NCBI RefSeq assembly: GCF_014174375.1 | Contig: NZ_JABEQE010000004.1 | Span: 124,001 to 188,000 of the forward strand | Reading direction: 5' to 3' | From: Gluconacetobacter asukensis | Lineage (GTDB): Bacteria; Pseudomonadota; Alphaproteobacteria; Acetobacterales; Acetobacteraceae | DNA: 64,000 nucleotides | In this document: positions 59,803 through 64,000 of the stretch, piece after piece | Position numbering within the stretch: position 1 is the stretch's first letter | Layout: the number at the start of each line of letters is the position of its first letter | Notes under the pieces: model-generated | Databases searched by the model: none | What the model saw: only the letters and a program-made list of their open reading frames with translations | What the model was told of the DNA's origin: nothing | Program-made: the position numbers and the translations under genes

Positions 59803-59943
59803 GGGGCGAAGGGGGCGGCTGGGGCCCAAAAAAGAGGAGACGACAGCCGATAACGAGACCATCGTGAGGCGCTTGGCCGCTCTCGCGGTGGCTATGGAAC
59901 CAAGGTCTGCGTCGTCGCTGACGGGTGTGGCCGTGCTCAGGGC

Positions 59944-60582
59944 CTAGTTCGACAGTCTGCGGCTGAAGAGGGCGGCGGCTCCCAGGAACAGAACCGCCGT
60001 GCCGAGATTCCAACCCAGGACCATCGCCGTGGCATCCAGGGGGTGGAACATCGACAATGCGCTTGAGGTGATGGCCGATACGGCGAGGCTCCCCATCAGG
60101 ATGACGGAGGTCGGCCGGAGCGCCGCCGCGTAGCGCAGCATGACCAGCATCACCAGGGACAGGGGCAGGCTCGTCAGGACAAGCGTGGCGAGGCAACTGG
60201 ATGCCGCTTCGACCGTGACCGCTCCCGGGGGTATGGGCACCCATCCATCGAAGCACTGGTAGCCGATGGTCGACAGCCATATGACGAGCGGCGGAGCCGG
60301 CAGCAAGAGCCACCACCGCGACCGGTCCGGCAGACTGACGAAGAATGTGGCGATCGTTGCCAGCACCCCGGTCAGAAGTGCGGAGAGCATATTGATCGCG
60401 AAGCTCGCATCCCGCATGCGTTCGGCGAATTGCGGTCGTAAGCCATGGCCGACTGTCAGCAGAGCCATAAGCGCGGCAGCAAGCAGGAGCCAACCGGTGG
60501 CACGCATCAAAGGCGAACGGAGACGCGTGACCGGACCGGCGTTGGCGGCGAGGGACTGGATGAGATCCGACGTGTCCATCAT
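59944..60582 (-). CDS. nrsF: NrsF-type anti-sigma factor (DUF1109)
   Basis: The 212-residue protein has six membrane helices (about residues 28-46, 63-83, 90-107, 124-149, 160-177 and 186-205) and the DUF1109 features (LIQSLAANAGPV.RL..PL at the N-terminus). In Caulobacter NrsF holds the ECF factor SigF at the membrane and releases it on metal stress. Cysteines are Cys110 and Cys130 only; the later Cys I recall as important in Caulobacter NrsF corresponds here to Pro181 (MFHPLDATAMVLGWN). It starts in an ATGA overlap with sigF and is the last gene of the operon. Confidence 0.88.
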   Translation of the reverse strand: MMDTSDLIQSLAANAGPVTRLRSPLMRATGWLLLAAALMALLTVGHGLRPQFAERMRDASFAINMLSALLTGVLATIATFFVSLPDRSRWWLLLPAPPLVIWLSTIGYQCFDGWVPIPPGAVTVEAASSCLATLVLTSLPLSLVMLVMLRYAAALRPTSVILMGSLAVSAITSSALSMFHPLDATAMVLGWNLGTAVLFLGAAALFSRRLSN

Positions 60583-61229
60583 GAATCCCCCCGATCGGAA
60601 AGCATCGCCCGCAGATTTTTGAGCGCGCGATGGGTGGCCATCTTCAGGGACGCGATCGACAGGCCCGTCTCGGCCGCCGCGTCCTTCAACGACATTTCCT
60701 TGAGCTTGAGGAGATCGACAGCCCTCTGCTGGATCGGCGGCAGAGATCCGATAGCCTCCTCCAGATGATGTTTGTCAAGCATGCTGTCACTGTCCTGAGA
60801 CGGCGAGGCTATCCCCTCATGTTCGTCCCTGAGGGGCGCCTCGCGGAGCGCCTGGCGCCCGCGCCGGCGCAGCCGGTCGACAGCCCGGCGATTGGCGATA
60901 CCCACGAGCCAGGGACCGAACGGACGCGAAGGATCATAAGTGTGTCGGATGGAATGGAGGGTAAGCAAGATGTCCTGCACTGTATCCTCGGCATCCCAAT
61001 GGTCCTTGTGCCAGAGCCTGACCAGCGACCTCAGATAGGGCGTAATCTCATGAAGAAGGCGCAGGTAGGAAGCCGTGTCGCCATCCTGCGCCCGCGCCAT
61101 GAGAATGGTCCAATCGATATCGCGCGTTGCTTCCGCTCCGATGGTCCTGTCTGCGCTGTTCGCGTCCGCGCACGCTCTCTCCTCTCCCGACGACACCAGC
61201 CTCAGCCGCCGCTGCTTGTCATTGCTCAT
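60579..61229 (-). CDS. sigF: ECF sigma factor SigF of the bufferin operon
   Basis: The ATG at 61229 gives 216 residues. Region 2 reads YLRSLVRLWHKDHWDAEDTVQDILLTLHSIRHTYDPSRPFGPWLVGIANRRAVDRLRRR and region 4 LPPIQQRAVDLLKLKEMSLKDAAAETGLSIASLKMATHRALKNLR, an ECF sigma factor. The N-terminal tail before region 2 is about 40 residues. Encoded with NrsF, it corresponds to the Caulobacter SigF that drives bufferin operons under copper, chromate or cadmium stress. The start lies inside the doxX gene (11-bp overlap), so sigma and anti-sigma are made from the same message as the peptide, implying positive feedback held by NrsF. Confidence 0.9.
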   Translation of the reverse strand: MSNDKQRRLRLVSSGEERACADANSADRTIGAEATRDIDWTILMARAQDGDTASYLRLLHEITPYLRSLVRLWHKDHWDAEDTVQDILLTLHSIRHTYDPSRPFGPWLVGIANRRAVDRLRRRGRQALREAPLRDEHEGIASPSQDSDSMLDKHHLEEAIGSLPPIQQRAVDLLKLKEMSLKDAAAETGLSIASLKMATHRALKNLRAMLSDRGDS

Positions 61230-61731
61230 GACGGCGGCCCCCAAGAGGACGAAAGCGTCGATCGACCCAATGATCGATCGACAGGCCGCCTGGGCCAATG
61301 GCGACGATGCCCACCGCGATCGCTGCCCAGTACAGGTGAAAATTGGCCCATCCATCCGGGAACACAAGCTGGATGACGCCAGTCATAATCAGCAGGGCCT
61401 GGGCGGCGAAGCGAGTCCCAAGGCCGAGAAGCAGCAGAACCGGAAGCACGATCTCGGCTGTCGCGGTCAGCAGGGCCAGTTGGTCTGGCGCCGGAAGATT
61501 GCGCTCTCTGCCAAGGATATGCAGCTTGAACTGGTCTTCGAACAGAAAGAGCGTCCCAGGTGAAAGCGACAGGAAACCATCCCACCGGGTGAGCCCGGAG
61601 CGAAGGAAGGGCAATGCGAGGGATACACGCAGGAGCGGAGGCGCGATCTGTCGCGCGGCCACTTCGATCCAGGCGATAGCCTGGCGGACCGCCATGACAG
61701 GCCCGATCGGAGAAGTCGATGCCCCGCTCAT
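61219..61731 (-). CDS. DoxX-family membrane protein of the bufferin operon
   Basis: The ATG at 61731 overlaps the bufC stop (ATGA) and gives 170 residues; a longer frame upstream is the bufC region read in another phase. There are four membrane helices: IAPPLLRVSLALPFLRSGLTRW, LLTATAEIVLPVLLLLGLGTRFAAQALLI, VIQLVFPDGWANFHLYWAAIAVGIVAIGPG and a start helix. RSGLTRW....LFEDQFKLHILG is the DoxX signature. DoxX proteins accompany BufABC/HvfABC operons almost always; redox or export roles are suggested, not known. Confidence 0.88.
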   Translation of the reverse strand: MSGASTSPIGPVMAVRQAIAWIEVAARQIAPPLLRVSLALPFLRSGLTRWDGFLSLSPGTLFLFEDQFKLHILGRERNLPAPDQLALLTATAEIVLPVLLLLGLGTRFAAQALLIMTGVIQLVFPDGWANFHLYWAAIAVGIVAIGPGGLSIDHWVDRRFRPLGGRRHEQ

Positions 61732-62594
61732 GCGTCCCTTCCTGGCCGACGCGATGGCCTGTCGAAGCCGATAATCGCGCGCGCTTCGAACAGGCCCGTC
61801 AGCGCACAGGCCAGATCGAAACACGGACCGACGGACATCCCCCGCTTCATCGCATCGACGATCGGGGAACCCGCCAGCAACGCCTCGATGAATGCCGCGG
61901 CTCCAACCGGCAGGGCACGTATTTCAACCTCCGCGTCCGGCCGCGTGACGAGCGCATCCTCGCTGCCGTCGGCAAGGTTCACCTCGCGCGTCCCGCACGC
62001 GTCGACGTTGATCTGCCAGATGGCGACGATCGGAAAGATCGACCGCACGATCCGGACAGAGGGATGGAGAAGAAGACGCATGGAGGGCAGCTCCGCGGGC
62101 GGGACCCGAGCCAGCGCGGATGGCAGCAACGGTATCGCTTCCGCCGCGTGATAGGCCTCCACCCATGATCGCTCGAGCCGGGCAATATCCCGAAGATAGG
62201 GGAGCGCCGCCGCGGGTTCGAACTGCGCGATAAATTCTGAAAAACCTGCTCCGTAATCGAGCATGATCGGCGAACGCGGCGGTTCTCCGGCGACGTAAAC
62301 GCGGGCCATGGCAGCGAAGAATTCATCACCGACAAGGCGGCATGTCACGGGAAAGGCGGCTTTCAGGGTTTCGATCAGACCGGCCACGACATTGTTGCGA
62401 TAGACGGCAAACCGCCTGGCGCCCGGTCGCCCGTCGGGTCCGGTCAGGCCTGAAGGGACGGCCATGCCGGGATCGAGAATCGCGTTGGCAAATGCGGCCT
62501 GAAGCTGCGCAAGGTCCCGCACGACGGCACCGTCGCCCCGGCTTTTCCGGATGGGTGCGGATTGATCAATCAGCTCGGGCATGGCCGTCATGTC
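61728..62594 (-). CDS. bufC: BufC/HvfC peptide-modification chaperone (DUF2063)
   Basis: The ATG at 62594 ([10 protein letters not shown]) is taken as start, overlapping bufB by 29 bp; ATG 62582 is equally possible. The product of about 288 residues has the DUF2063 domain: [85 protein letters not shown] and [18 protein letters not shown]. In MNIO-dependent RiPP systems this partner presents the precursor peptide to the BufB enzyme. It overlaps doxX by ATGA. Confidence 0.9.
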
Positions 62595-63510
62595 CGGTGG
62601 GGTCGTTGCAGGATATGTGCGAAAAACCTTGAGATCGGTGGGATATCCCAACGGATGTCGCCGTCATGGTCCGCTCCGCGCGGTCCGCTTCCGCCTTCAG
62701 CATCGACCAGTCGGGCACATCCATGTCCCATTCGATCAGGGTCGGGACAGGCCCGATGCGTGCGACCGTATAGGCAAACAGATCCCAGACAAGGTCTGCG
62801 ACAGGACGGTCATGGGCATCGATCAGCAGGGGGCGTCCCTCGTCATCGGCATCGGGAGCAGAGCCCGCCAGATGAATTTCCTGCACATGGGCAAGCGGGT
62901 AGGAGTCGATATAGGCGATTGGATCCCATTGCTGGTTGATCGAGGCGACATGGACATTGTTCACGTCCAGCAGCAGGCCGCAGCCCGTGCGTCGCACGAT
63001 TTCCGCGATGAAGCCGGTTTCCGACCAGGTGCTTTCGGCGAACGCCAGATAGGTGGACGGGTTTTCAAGCAGCATCTGCCGCCCCAGGGCGCCCTGCACC
63101 TGATCGACATGGTCTGCGACATGCATGAGCGTCTCGGCCGTATAGGGCAGCGGCAGCAGGTCGTTGAGGAAACCCGCGTCGTGGCTCGACCAGGCAAGGT
63201 GTTCCGAGACGAGAGCCGGAGCGTAGCGGTCGATCAGTTGTTTCAGGCGACCGAGGTGATCGCGGTCCAGCGGCCGCGCCGCACCGATCGACAGGCCGAC
63301 GCCGTGGAGCGACAGGGGATAGCGTTCGCGGATGGCCGCAAGATAGCGATGCGGCGGCCCACCTGCGCCCATATAGTTTTCCGCGTGCACTTCGAAAAAA
63401 CCGACATCGGGGGACGTATCGATAATCGTGCGGTAGTGCTCGGCCTTCAGGCCGACGCCGGCGCGTTTGGGCATTCTGGCGTGCGGGCTTGCGAAGAAGA
63501 ATTCCGGCAC
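62566..63510 (-). CDS. bufB: BufB, multinuclear non-haem iron oxidase (MNIO, DUF692)
   Basis: The 314-residue TIM-barrel enzyme has the metal-ligand motifs of the family: His69 ([10 protein letters not shown]), Glu103-His104 (VSEHLAW), Glu149-Asn150 (LLENPSTYL), Asp182/His187 (LDVNNVHV), Glu211-His213 (EIHLAG), Asp231/His233 (LIDAHDRPV) and Glu260 (LIEWD). Enzymes of this family (MbnB, BufB) use a multi-iron centre and O2 to turn cysteines of a small peptide into heterocycles that bind copper. The tail after residue 280 ([14 protein letters not shown]...) is unlike the family and reads into bufC. It is preceded by bufA with a 60-bp gap. Confidence 0.94.
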
Positions 63511-63542
63511 GGTTCGCGTCTCTCCCGGATTGGAAAGGACGA

Positions 63543-63559
63543 CCGGGCCCGAGGCCCGG
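63543..63559 (-). promoter_or_regulatory. hairpin between bufA and bufB
   Basis: CCGGGCC-CGA-GGCCCGG is a perfect 7-bp stem with a 3-base loop in the 60-bp gap after bufA. There is no T-tract on the reverse strand, so it is more likely an attenuator or a 3' stabiliser making bufA message more abundant than the downstream part. Confidence 0.55.
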
Positions 63560-63570
63560 CCGAGCCGGAG

Positions 63571-63903
63571 TCAGGCCTTGGGCGTGAGGCTGCCTGCTCC
63601 ATTCGGGGTGGAGATGGCCGTGCAGCTGCCCGCAGGTGTGAGCTTGAAGGCATTGCCCTGATAGTCGGTGGTGCTGGTGCCGGCACAGGTCGTTCCGGCA
63701 CCGGCATAGCAGTCGTTCTGACCCTTGAGCGCCACGCCGAAGCAGGGCTGGACCTTGCCGGATTTCACCTTGATGGTGTTCGCGGCCTGGATCTTCTTCT
63801 GCAGGGCCGTGAACTCCTGCGCGCTGGCCGGGGTGACGCTCAGTGCGCCCAATGCGGTCGCGAAGGCACCCATCACCAGGGTGGACATCAAACGATCGGA
63901 CAT
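63571..63903 (-). CDS. bufA: BufA bufferin precursor peptide (DUF2282)
   Basis: Two ATGs six bases apart are possible; 63903 is chosen because GGAG lies 8 bases upstream, while 63909 abuts it. The 110-residue product has a signal peptide (residues 1-29, ending ASAQ), a Lys-rich leader ([20 protein letters not shown]) and a core with four Cys at 54, 65, 73 and 94: [36 protein letters not shown]...GSC. This is the DUF2282/bufferin pattern. In known systems MNIO modification of core Cys gives a copper-binding periplasmic peptide. It is first gene of the operon bufA-bufB-bufC-doxX-sigF-nrsF. Confidence 0.93.
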
Positions 63904-63909
63904 AAACAT

Positions 63910-64000
63910 TCTCCTGGATGTTGGACCAGTGCCCCTCGGCGACCGGCGGATGACGGCCTGACCTGGCGCGTCTGTCTGGAGGTTCGACCGGATAGCCTCC
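63910..64000. promoter_or_regulatory. probable start of the bufferin promoter region
   Basis: The reverse strand upstream of bufA should contain the operon promoter, but only about 90 bp are in the window. I see GTCGAACC near 63986-63979, reminiscent of an ECF -35 element, but no -10 at proper spacing. The promoter may lie outside. Confidence 0.3.

Follow-up and report, generated by a model that had tools for sequence, protein, structure and literature searches.

Buf1-type bufferin clusters have a core of genes for a Buf1 precursor, an MNIO enzyme, a DUF2063 protein and a DoxX protein, and sigma factor and NrsF genes occur in them too (PMC12452194). In Caulobacter vibrioides/crescentus, the DUF2282 precursor, MNIO, partner and DoxX genes have sigF-nrsF nearby, a SigF-type promoter lies ahead of the first buf gene, and NrsF carries two conserved cysteines; sigF-nrsF there, however, form a separate unit with its own promoter. 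NrsF restrains SigF, and its two cysteines matter, including for release of the sigma factor (PMC3511200). Copper induces the SigF regulon, and the sigF mutant is copper-sensitive (PMC8224329). In this study we analyzed a stretch of 64,000 nucleotides from Gluconacetobacter asukensis (contig NZ_JABEQE010000004.1, positions 124,001 to 188,000; hereafter the window), which contains six genes of these kinds. It is very likely that they constitute a complete, self-regulated Buf1 bufferin operon, most likely acquired horizontally as a unit from a Rhizobiales-type source. Since published Buf1 clusters hold the same parts, the operon is an ordinary instance of a described kind. It differs from the Caulobacter arrangement in that sigF and nrsF come at the end of the buf operon, and no separate promoter was found for them.

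Other described systems lie near to this one. The gig operon of Cupriavidus metallidurans and the captophorin clusters (fontiphorin and oxazolin) share MNIO and DUF2063 proteins with it and would share 5-thiooxazole chemistry and a link to copper (PMC13097082, PMC12452194). Fontiphorin and oxazolin have other kinds of precursor, and all these systems are set beside the window operon by description. 5-Thiooxazole is a common product of the MNIO-partner group (PMC13097082). The six-gene order is also found on the Rhizobium plasmids pT136c, pPR1 and pRgalIE4872d and in Ancylobacter sonchi, with MNIO identities of about 79-83%. Nothing relevant to bufferins in acetic acid bacteria was found among the literature matches listed, by which absence in print is unproven, and the string "acetobacter" does not appear in the main text of PMC12452194.

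The six genes lie on the minus strand at 59944-63903 in the order bufA, bufB, bufC, bufD, sigF-like and nrsF-like, and the Pfam assignments of all six proteins exceed the gathering cut-offs. An earlier sequence-only reading of this DNA had given the coordinates and strand of all six correctly. It had also described the genes as overlapping, which holds for four of the five junctions (bufB/bufC, 26 nt; bufC/bufD, 4 nt; bufD/sigF-like, 11 nt; sigF-like/nrsF-like, 4 nt) but not of bufA and bufB, which are separated by a gap of 60 nt. Among the 80 named loci that matched best by MNIO, 19 reproduce the order and content gene for gene, so that the arrangement is not due to chance. Together with the Pfam and NCBIfam assignments and the fold of the partner protein, these relatives bear out the Buf1 identity and the complete set of parts that had been claimed. 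The operon is real and complete, and it is probably functional. The host genome (99.7% complete) has a single match each for DUF2282, MNIO and NrsF, with no second copies in the genome search.

bufA (63571-63903) encodes a Buf1 (DUF2282) precursor of 110 amino acids. The sequence-only reading had proposed a profile comparison with DUF2282, and PF10048 was matched at 72.9 bits against a cut-off of 22.4 (E-value 2e-20). The start at 63903 is preferred to the ATG at 63909 because in most of the 26 relatives compared the alignment begins at MS(D/N)R, and with this start the cysteines are indeed numbered 54, 65, 73 and 94 as had been stated. In 84 aligned rows, the first and second cysteines are present in all 84, the third in 82 (2 gaps) and the fourth in 70 (14 gaps); in the close rows, the window's included, all four are kept (27 of 27). 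By eye, the N-terminus has a hydrophobic stretch followed by ...ASA-Q, a putative Sec-like signal. In described Buf1, the modification is on the two central cysteines, and a disulphide joins the outer two (PMC12452194). By analogy, Cys65 and Cys73 of BufA should be modified and Cys54 and Cys94 should be bridged. A mass shift on all four cysteines, as had been expected, is therefore a wrong prediction.

bufB (62566-63510) encodes an MNIO (DUF692) protein of 314 amino acids (PF05114, 2e-107), which matches the NCBIfam equivalog for the bufferin maturase, NF050167 MNIO_BufB, at 390.9 bits against a cut-off of 310. Its relatives in the PDB are 3bww, TglH (8hci/8hi7) and MbnB. BufB has the shared residue in all 64 columns that do not vary among 82 relatives, and likewise in all 31 polar columns whose conservation among these is 98% or more. 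bufC (61728-62591) encodes a protein of 287 amino acids (PF09836, 2e-27). The AlphaFold model of BufC, based on 38 aligned sequences with that of the window among them, has a predicted local distance difference test score (pLDDT) of 91, and its best PDB folds are 8hi7 chain A (E-value 2e-6), 8hci chain A and NGO1945 (3dee; 4e-5). Chain A of these TglHI entries (about 269 residues) is presumably TglI. BufC scores 43.7 bits with the NCBIfam HvfC family, below the cut-off of 142; the PF09836 and fold matches place it among the PME-type 1 partner proteins, which have a DUF2063 and an RRE domain. bufD (61219-61731) encodes a DoxX-family membrane protein of 170 amino acids (PF07681, 8e-13).

The last two genes encode an extracytoplasmic function (ECF) sigma factor of 216 amino acids (60579-61229; Sigma70_r2 PF04542, 7e-13; Sigma70_r4_2 PF08281, 1e-9) and an anti-sigma membrane protein of 212 amino acids (59944-60582; PF06532, 2e-23). 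Among the NCBIfam matches listed for the sigma factor (25 of 72 families), the general family TIGR02937 (sigma70-ECF) alone reaches its cut-off. The anti-sigma protein matches Pfam NrsF at 83.8 bits (cut-off 26.8) and has two cysteines only, Cys110 and Cys130. Of 41 aligned rows, two of which are one locus fetched twice, 39 have cysteine in both columns; the exceptions are L087, which lacks the second, and an 81-residue fragment (L062), which lacks both. The two genes thus show what is expected of a SigF/NrsF pair, an ECF sigma factor gene followed by a gene for an NrsF membrane protein with two conserved cysteines.

The Caulobacter SigF promoter is GTAACC-N16-CGAA (PMC3511200). A putative SigF-type promoter, GTTACC-N16-CGAA, sits 80 nt ahead of bufA on the minus strand at 63983-64008 (contig 187983-188008); the window holds 63983-64000 of it, and the -35 hexamer lies beyond the window end, past which the site extends by 8 nt. 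It agrees with the Caulobacter sequence at nine of ten positions with the spacing of 16. The three nearest Rhizobium plasmid operons have its first ten letters, GTTACCTCGG; pT136c, pPR1 and pRgalIE4872d share the GTTACC type, and Ancylobacter has GTGACC. We scored such sites in the expected zone before bufA (at least nine of ten matches, spacing 15 or 16) in the 80 named loci, one of which was unscorable. Where the fetched stretch includes NrsF, every locus has a site (22 of 22); of the 57 loci whose stretch shows no NrsF, 8 have one (Fisher p = 3e-13, with a background of roughly 0.01 per zone). The site precedes bufA in each of the 19 loci that share the six-gene order exactly, and none of the 19 has one within 300 nt ahead of the sigma factor gene. 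In the window, no SigF-like site was found in the 400 bases ahead of the sigma factor gene, even at eight of ten matches. This distribution supports a single SigF-type promoter driving its own operon. It points to one head promoter from which the sigma and anti-sigma factor genes would be transcribed last, and the feedback loop suggested in the sequence-only reading gains support from the conserved site heading the operon.

The genome has nine exact GTWACC-N16-CGAA sites. With one mismatch allowed, 278 sites were found against 266 for the reversed control, so that the motif is uninformative away from conserved positions. Judged by eye from lists of open reading frames, the bufA site and at least two others have a plausible start within about 130 nt downstream. 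The two, at 1024-1049 of contig C30 and 24800-24825 of contig C27, are followed by such starts after about 30 and 130 nt, and they may mark more targets of the sigma factor or have arisen by chance.

Several points weigh against this reading. The site ahead of bufA deviates from the SigF consensus at position 3, and taken alone it is weak, since shuffling the letters of the upstream region gave a score as high in one of 40 trials. The Fisher test disregards kinship, and the scored loci are the nearest MNIO relatives; because the loci are related, the p-value overstates their independence. The anti-sigma protein has no match to the NCBIfam NrsF equivalog NF042994, and for this reason we call it NrsF-like; a plasmid homologue (in L216) reaches 20.6 where the cut-off is 300. 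The spacing of the NrsF cysteines is 20 here and 50 in Caulobacter (131 and 181), by comparison of numbering only. In addition, Caulobacter sigF is not strongly autoregulated (PMC3511200).

From what is known of the family, the following working may be proposed. At the inner membrane, NrsF would retain the ECF sigma factor until too much copper in the periplasm, or a different metal (Cr or Cd, for example), acts on the NrsF cysteine pair and sets the sigma factor free. The sigma factor would then transcribe the entire operon, including sigF and nrsF, from the GTTACC-N16-CGAA site ahead of bufA. In the cytoplasm, BufB with BufC would convert Cys65 and Cys73 of BufA to 5-thiooxazoles. Cys54 and Cys94 would form a disulphide, and the peptide, exported by Sec, would bind copper in the periplasm.

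The distribution of the operon within the family suggests a foreign origin. Of 14 genomes from the genus, only that of the window has the MNIO; the 13 other congeners have none. Of 299 genomes sampled from the family, 39 have some MNIO match; the best apart from the window, in a single genome (G078) whose protein is the same as the one at locus L067, is 74% identical, and the next is at most 61%. The nearest kin outside the family are those of the Rhizobium plasmids (about 80-83%) and Ancylobacter sonchi (79%). In a tree built from MNIO, ECF and NrsF jointly (37 loci with all three genes above the length limits, after removal of four duplicates; 680 columns), the window operon groups with Ancylobacter and the three Rhizobium plasmids with support of 100/99. 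The approximately unbiased (AU) test on these data rejects joining the window with 11 same-family loci (p = 0.0006). A quick tree of MNIO only (112 rows; L071 and L128 were dropped as short fragments) gives the same placement, with an unstarred SH-aLRT (approximate likelihood ratio test) value of 93. The direction of transfer is deduced from absence in congeners, because the tree roots are midpoints. Of four plasmid relatives examined, two are typed as conjugative and two as non-mobilizable.

In same-family bufferin loci, NrsF was seen in 13 of 29, and there it lies upstream of bufA and not at the end of the operon, as does the sigma factor gene where seen; the same regulon is thus arranged differently there. 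It is on the same strand in L035/L213, L043, L052, L053, L054, L055, L056, L057, L059 and L061, and divergent in L044, L051 and L062.

The insertion site itself is variable. The flanks of the operon are conserved in congeners, and in 5 of 13 both are on one contig within about 22 kb; in the other eight they are on separate contigs or far apart, which leaves the site undecided there. The distance between the flanks is 0.8, 1.9, 7.5, 10.1 and 21.5 kb in the five, and 4.3 kb in the window genome. Congener G247 has about 10 kb of unrelated genes at the site (C14:23926-34051, locus L202), encoding by Pfam a sodium:solute symporter, a TonB receptor, an M20 peptidase and an amidohydrolase, and by eye a LysR-like regulator. 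At the downstream junction of the operon, between the conserved flank and nrsF, a 123-bp remnant of a DDE transposase gene lies on the plus strand (59814-59936), of which 112 positions are identical to a stretch of a congener's DDE_Tnp_1 gene. The differing spacing and this remnant indicate a variable site with the remnant of a mobile element. The GC contents of the operon (63.5%), the left flank (67.7%) and the right flank (64.5%) are too similar for an argument. Acquisition of the whole operon as one unit from a Rhizobiales-type source is most likely on these sequence comparisons.

Vertical inheritance of the operon with loss from the other members of the genus would agree with the family genomes that hold some MNIO match. 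It would also agree with the AU test on MNIO only, which does not reject grouping of the window with same-family rows (p = 0.50, with 23 of the 29 family rows in the test) and so detracts from the case for transfer. The MNIO-only tree is too weak to exclude a family grouping. The three-protein concatenation nests the operon with Ancylobacter and the Rhizobium plasmids and rejects the family grouping. Absence from the congeners, the disturbed site and the position of NrsF ahead of bufA in the 13 same-family loci (the loci are up to about 3 kb long and reach no further than bufC) also argue against descent within the family, which we regard as very unlikely. A decayed or silent insertion that yields no product is as improbable. 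The disturbed site, an unusual C-terminal tail of BufB and the lack of a gene that close relatives have between bufB and bufC would fit decay, but all six frames are open, BufB retains every invariant column, and the promoter site is present.

The metal is a further matter. A Buf1-type operon could serve mainly for gold, chromate, cadmium or mercury, or for oxidative stress, rather than copper. The Caulobacter SigF regulon responds to Cr and Cd (PMC3511200), related gig clusters are named for gold, and MerC fusions are known (PMC12452194). However, Caulobacter Buf1 chelates Cu(I)/Cu(II) and improves growth under copper excess (PMC12452194), and inactivation of sigF harms growth with copper, unlike with Cr and Cd (PMC8224329). 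A main role outside copper is therefore unlikely, if less so than inheritance within the family or decay, and we prefer a copper-buffering operon acquired from outside the family.

The gene lacking from the window encodes a protein of about 328 amino acids. It lies between bufB and bufC in 12 of the 80 named loci and 2 of the 4 plasmid loci (for example L064:4574-5560, L216:6916-7899 and L218:6894-7880), with remnants in L217 and L071. Three of the four closest relatives of the window operon have it (pT136c, pRgalIE4872d and Ancylobacter), pPR1 has a remnant, and the gene was not found in the window. Sequence comparison of the L216 copy with Pfam, NCBIfam and PDB gave no match. A model from 12 sequences (pLDDT 75) gives weak fold matches only, to N-deacetylase/N-sulfotransferase 1 (E-value 1e-4), a beta-galactosidase (5e-4) and a ThuA-like protein (6e-4; TM-score 0.5 by target), with glutamine-amidotransferase proteins lower down. 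In classical buf1 operons, genes at this position are called "adjamnio-VI" (PMC12452194), and by position the gene probably belongs to that family. The last 22 or so residues of BufB (about 293-314; 62566-62635) are unlike those of seven compared relatives, and this tail and the 26-nt overlap with bufC may stem from loss of the seventh gene. The region 62590-62665 has no DNA match to the gene; a five-residue likeness there in another frame was rejected as a scar because it is too short.

PADLOC gave no match for bufA, bufB or bufC. Three pyrroloquinoline quinone (PQQ) alcohol dehydrogenases above the family cut-off are encoded in the genome, which fits an acetic acid bacterium and is not proof of one.

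The basic system has already been published. Two points are modestly new: a single promoter at the head of the operon is conserved, and there is evidence for arrival of the whole regulon from a Rhizobiales-type source. We give about even chances to a broader idea, that the operon is a portable autonomous regulon in which sigma factor, anti-sigma sensor, head promoter and effectors move jointly between orders, sometimes on conjugative plasmids. Such a regulon could work on arrival because it needs hardly more of its host than core RNA polymerase and Sec, and in this genome the chief or only target of the arrived sigma factor may be the operon that encodes it. The operon offers a testable single-promoter form of SigF control, and a compact cassette for transferring regulated copper buffering among laboratory strains. 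It is a well-supported case of an entire bufferin regulon entering a genus that is otherwise without one among the sampled genomes.

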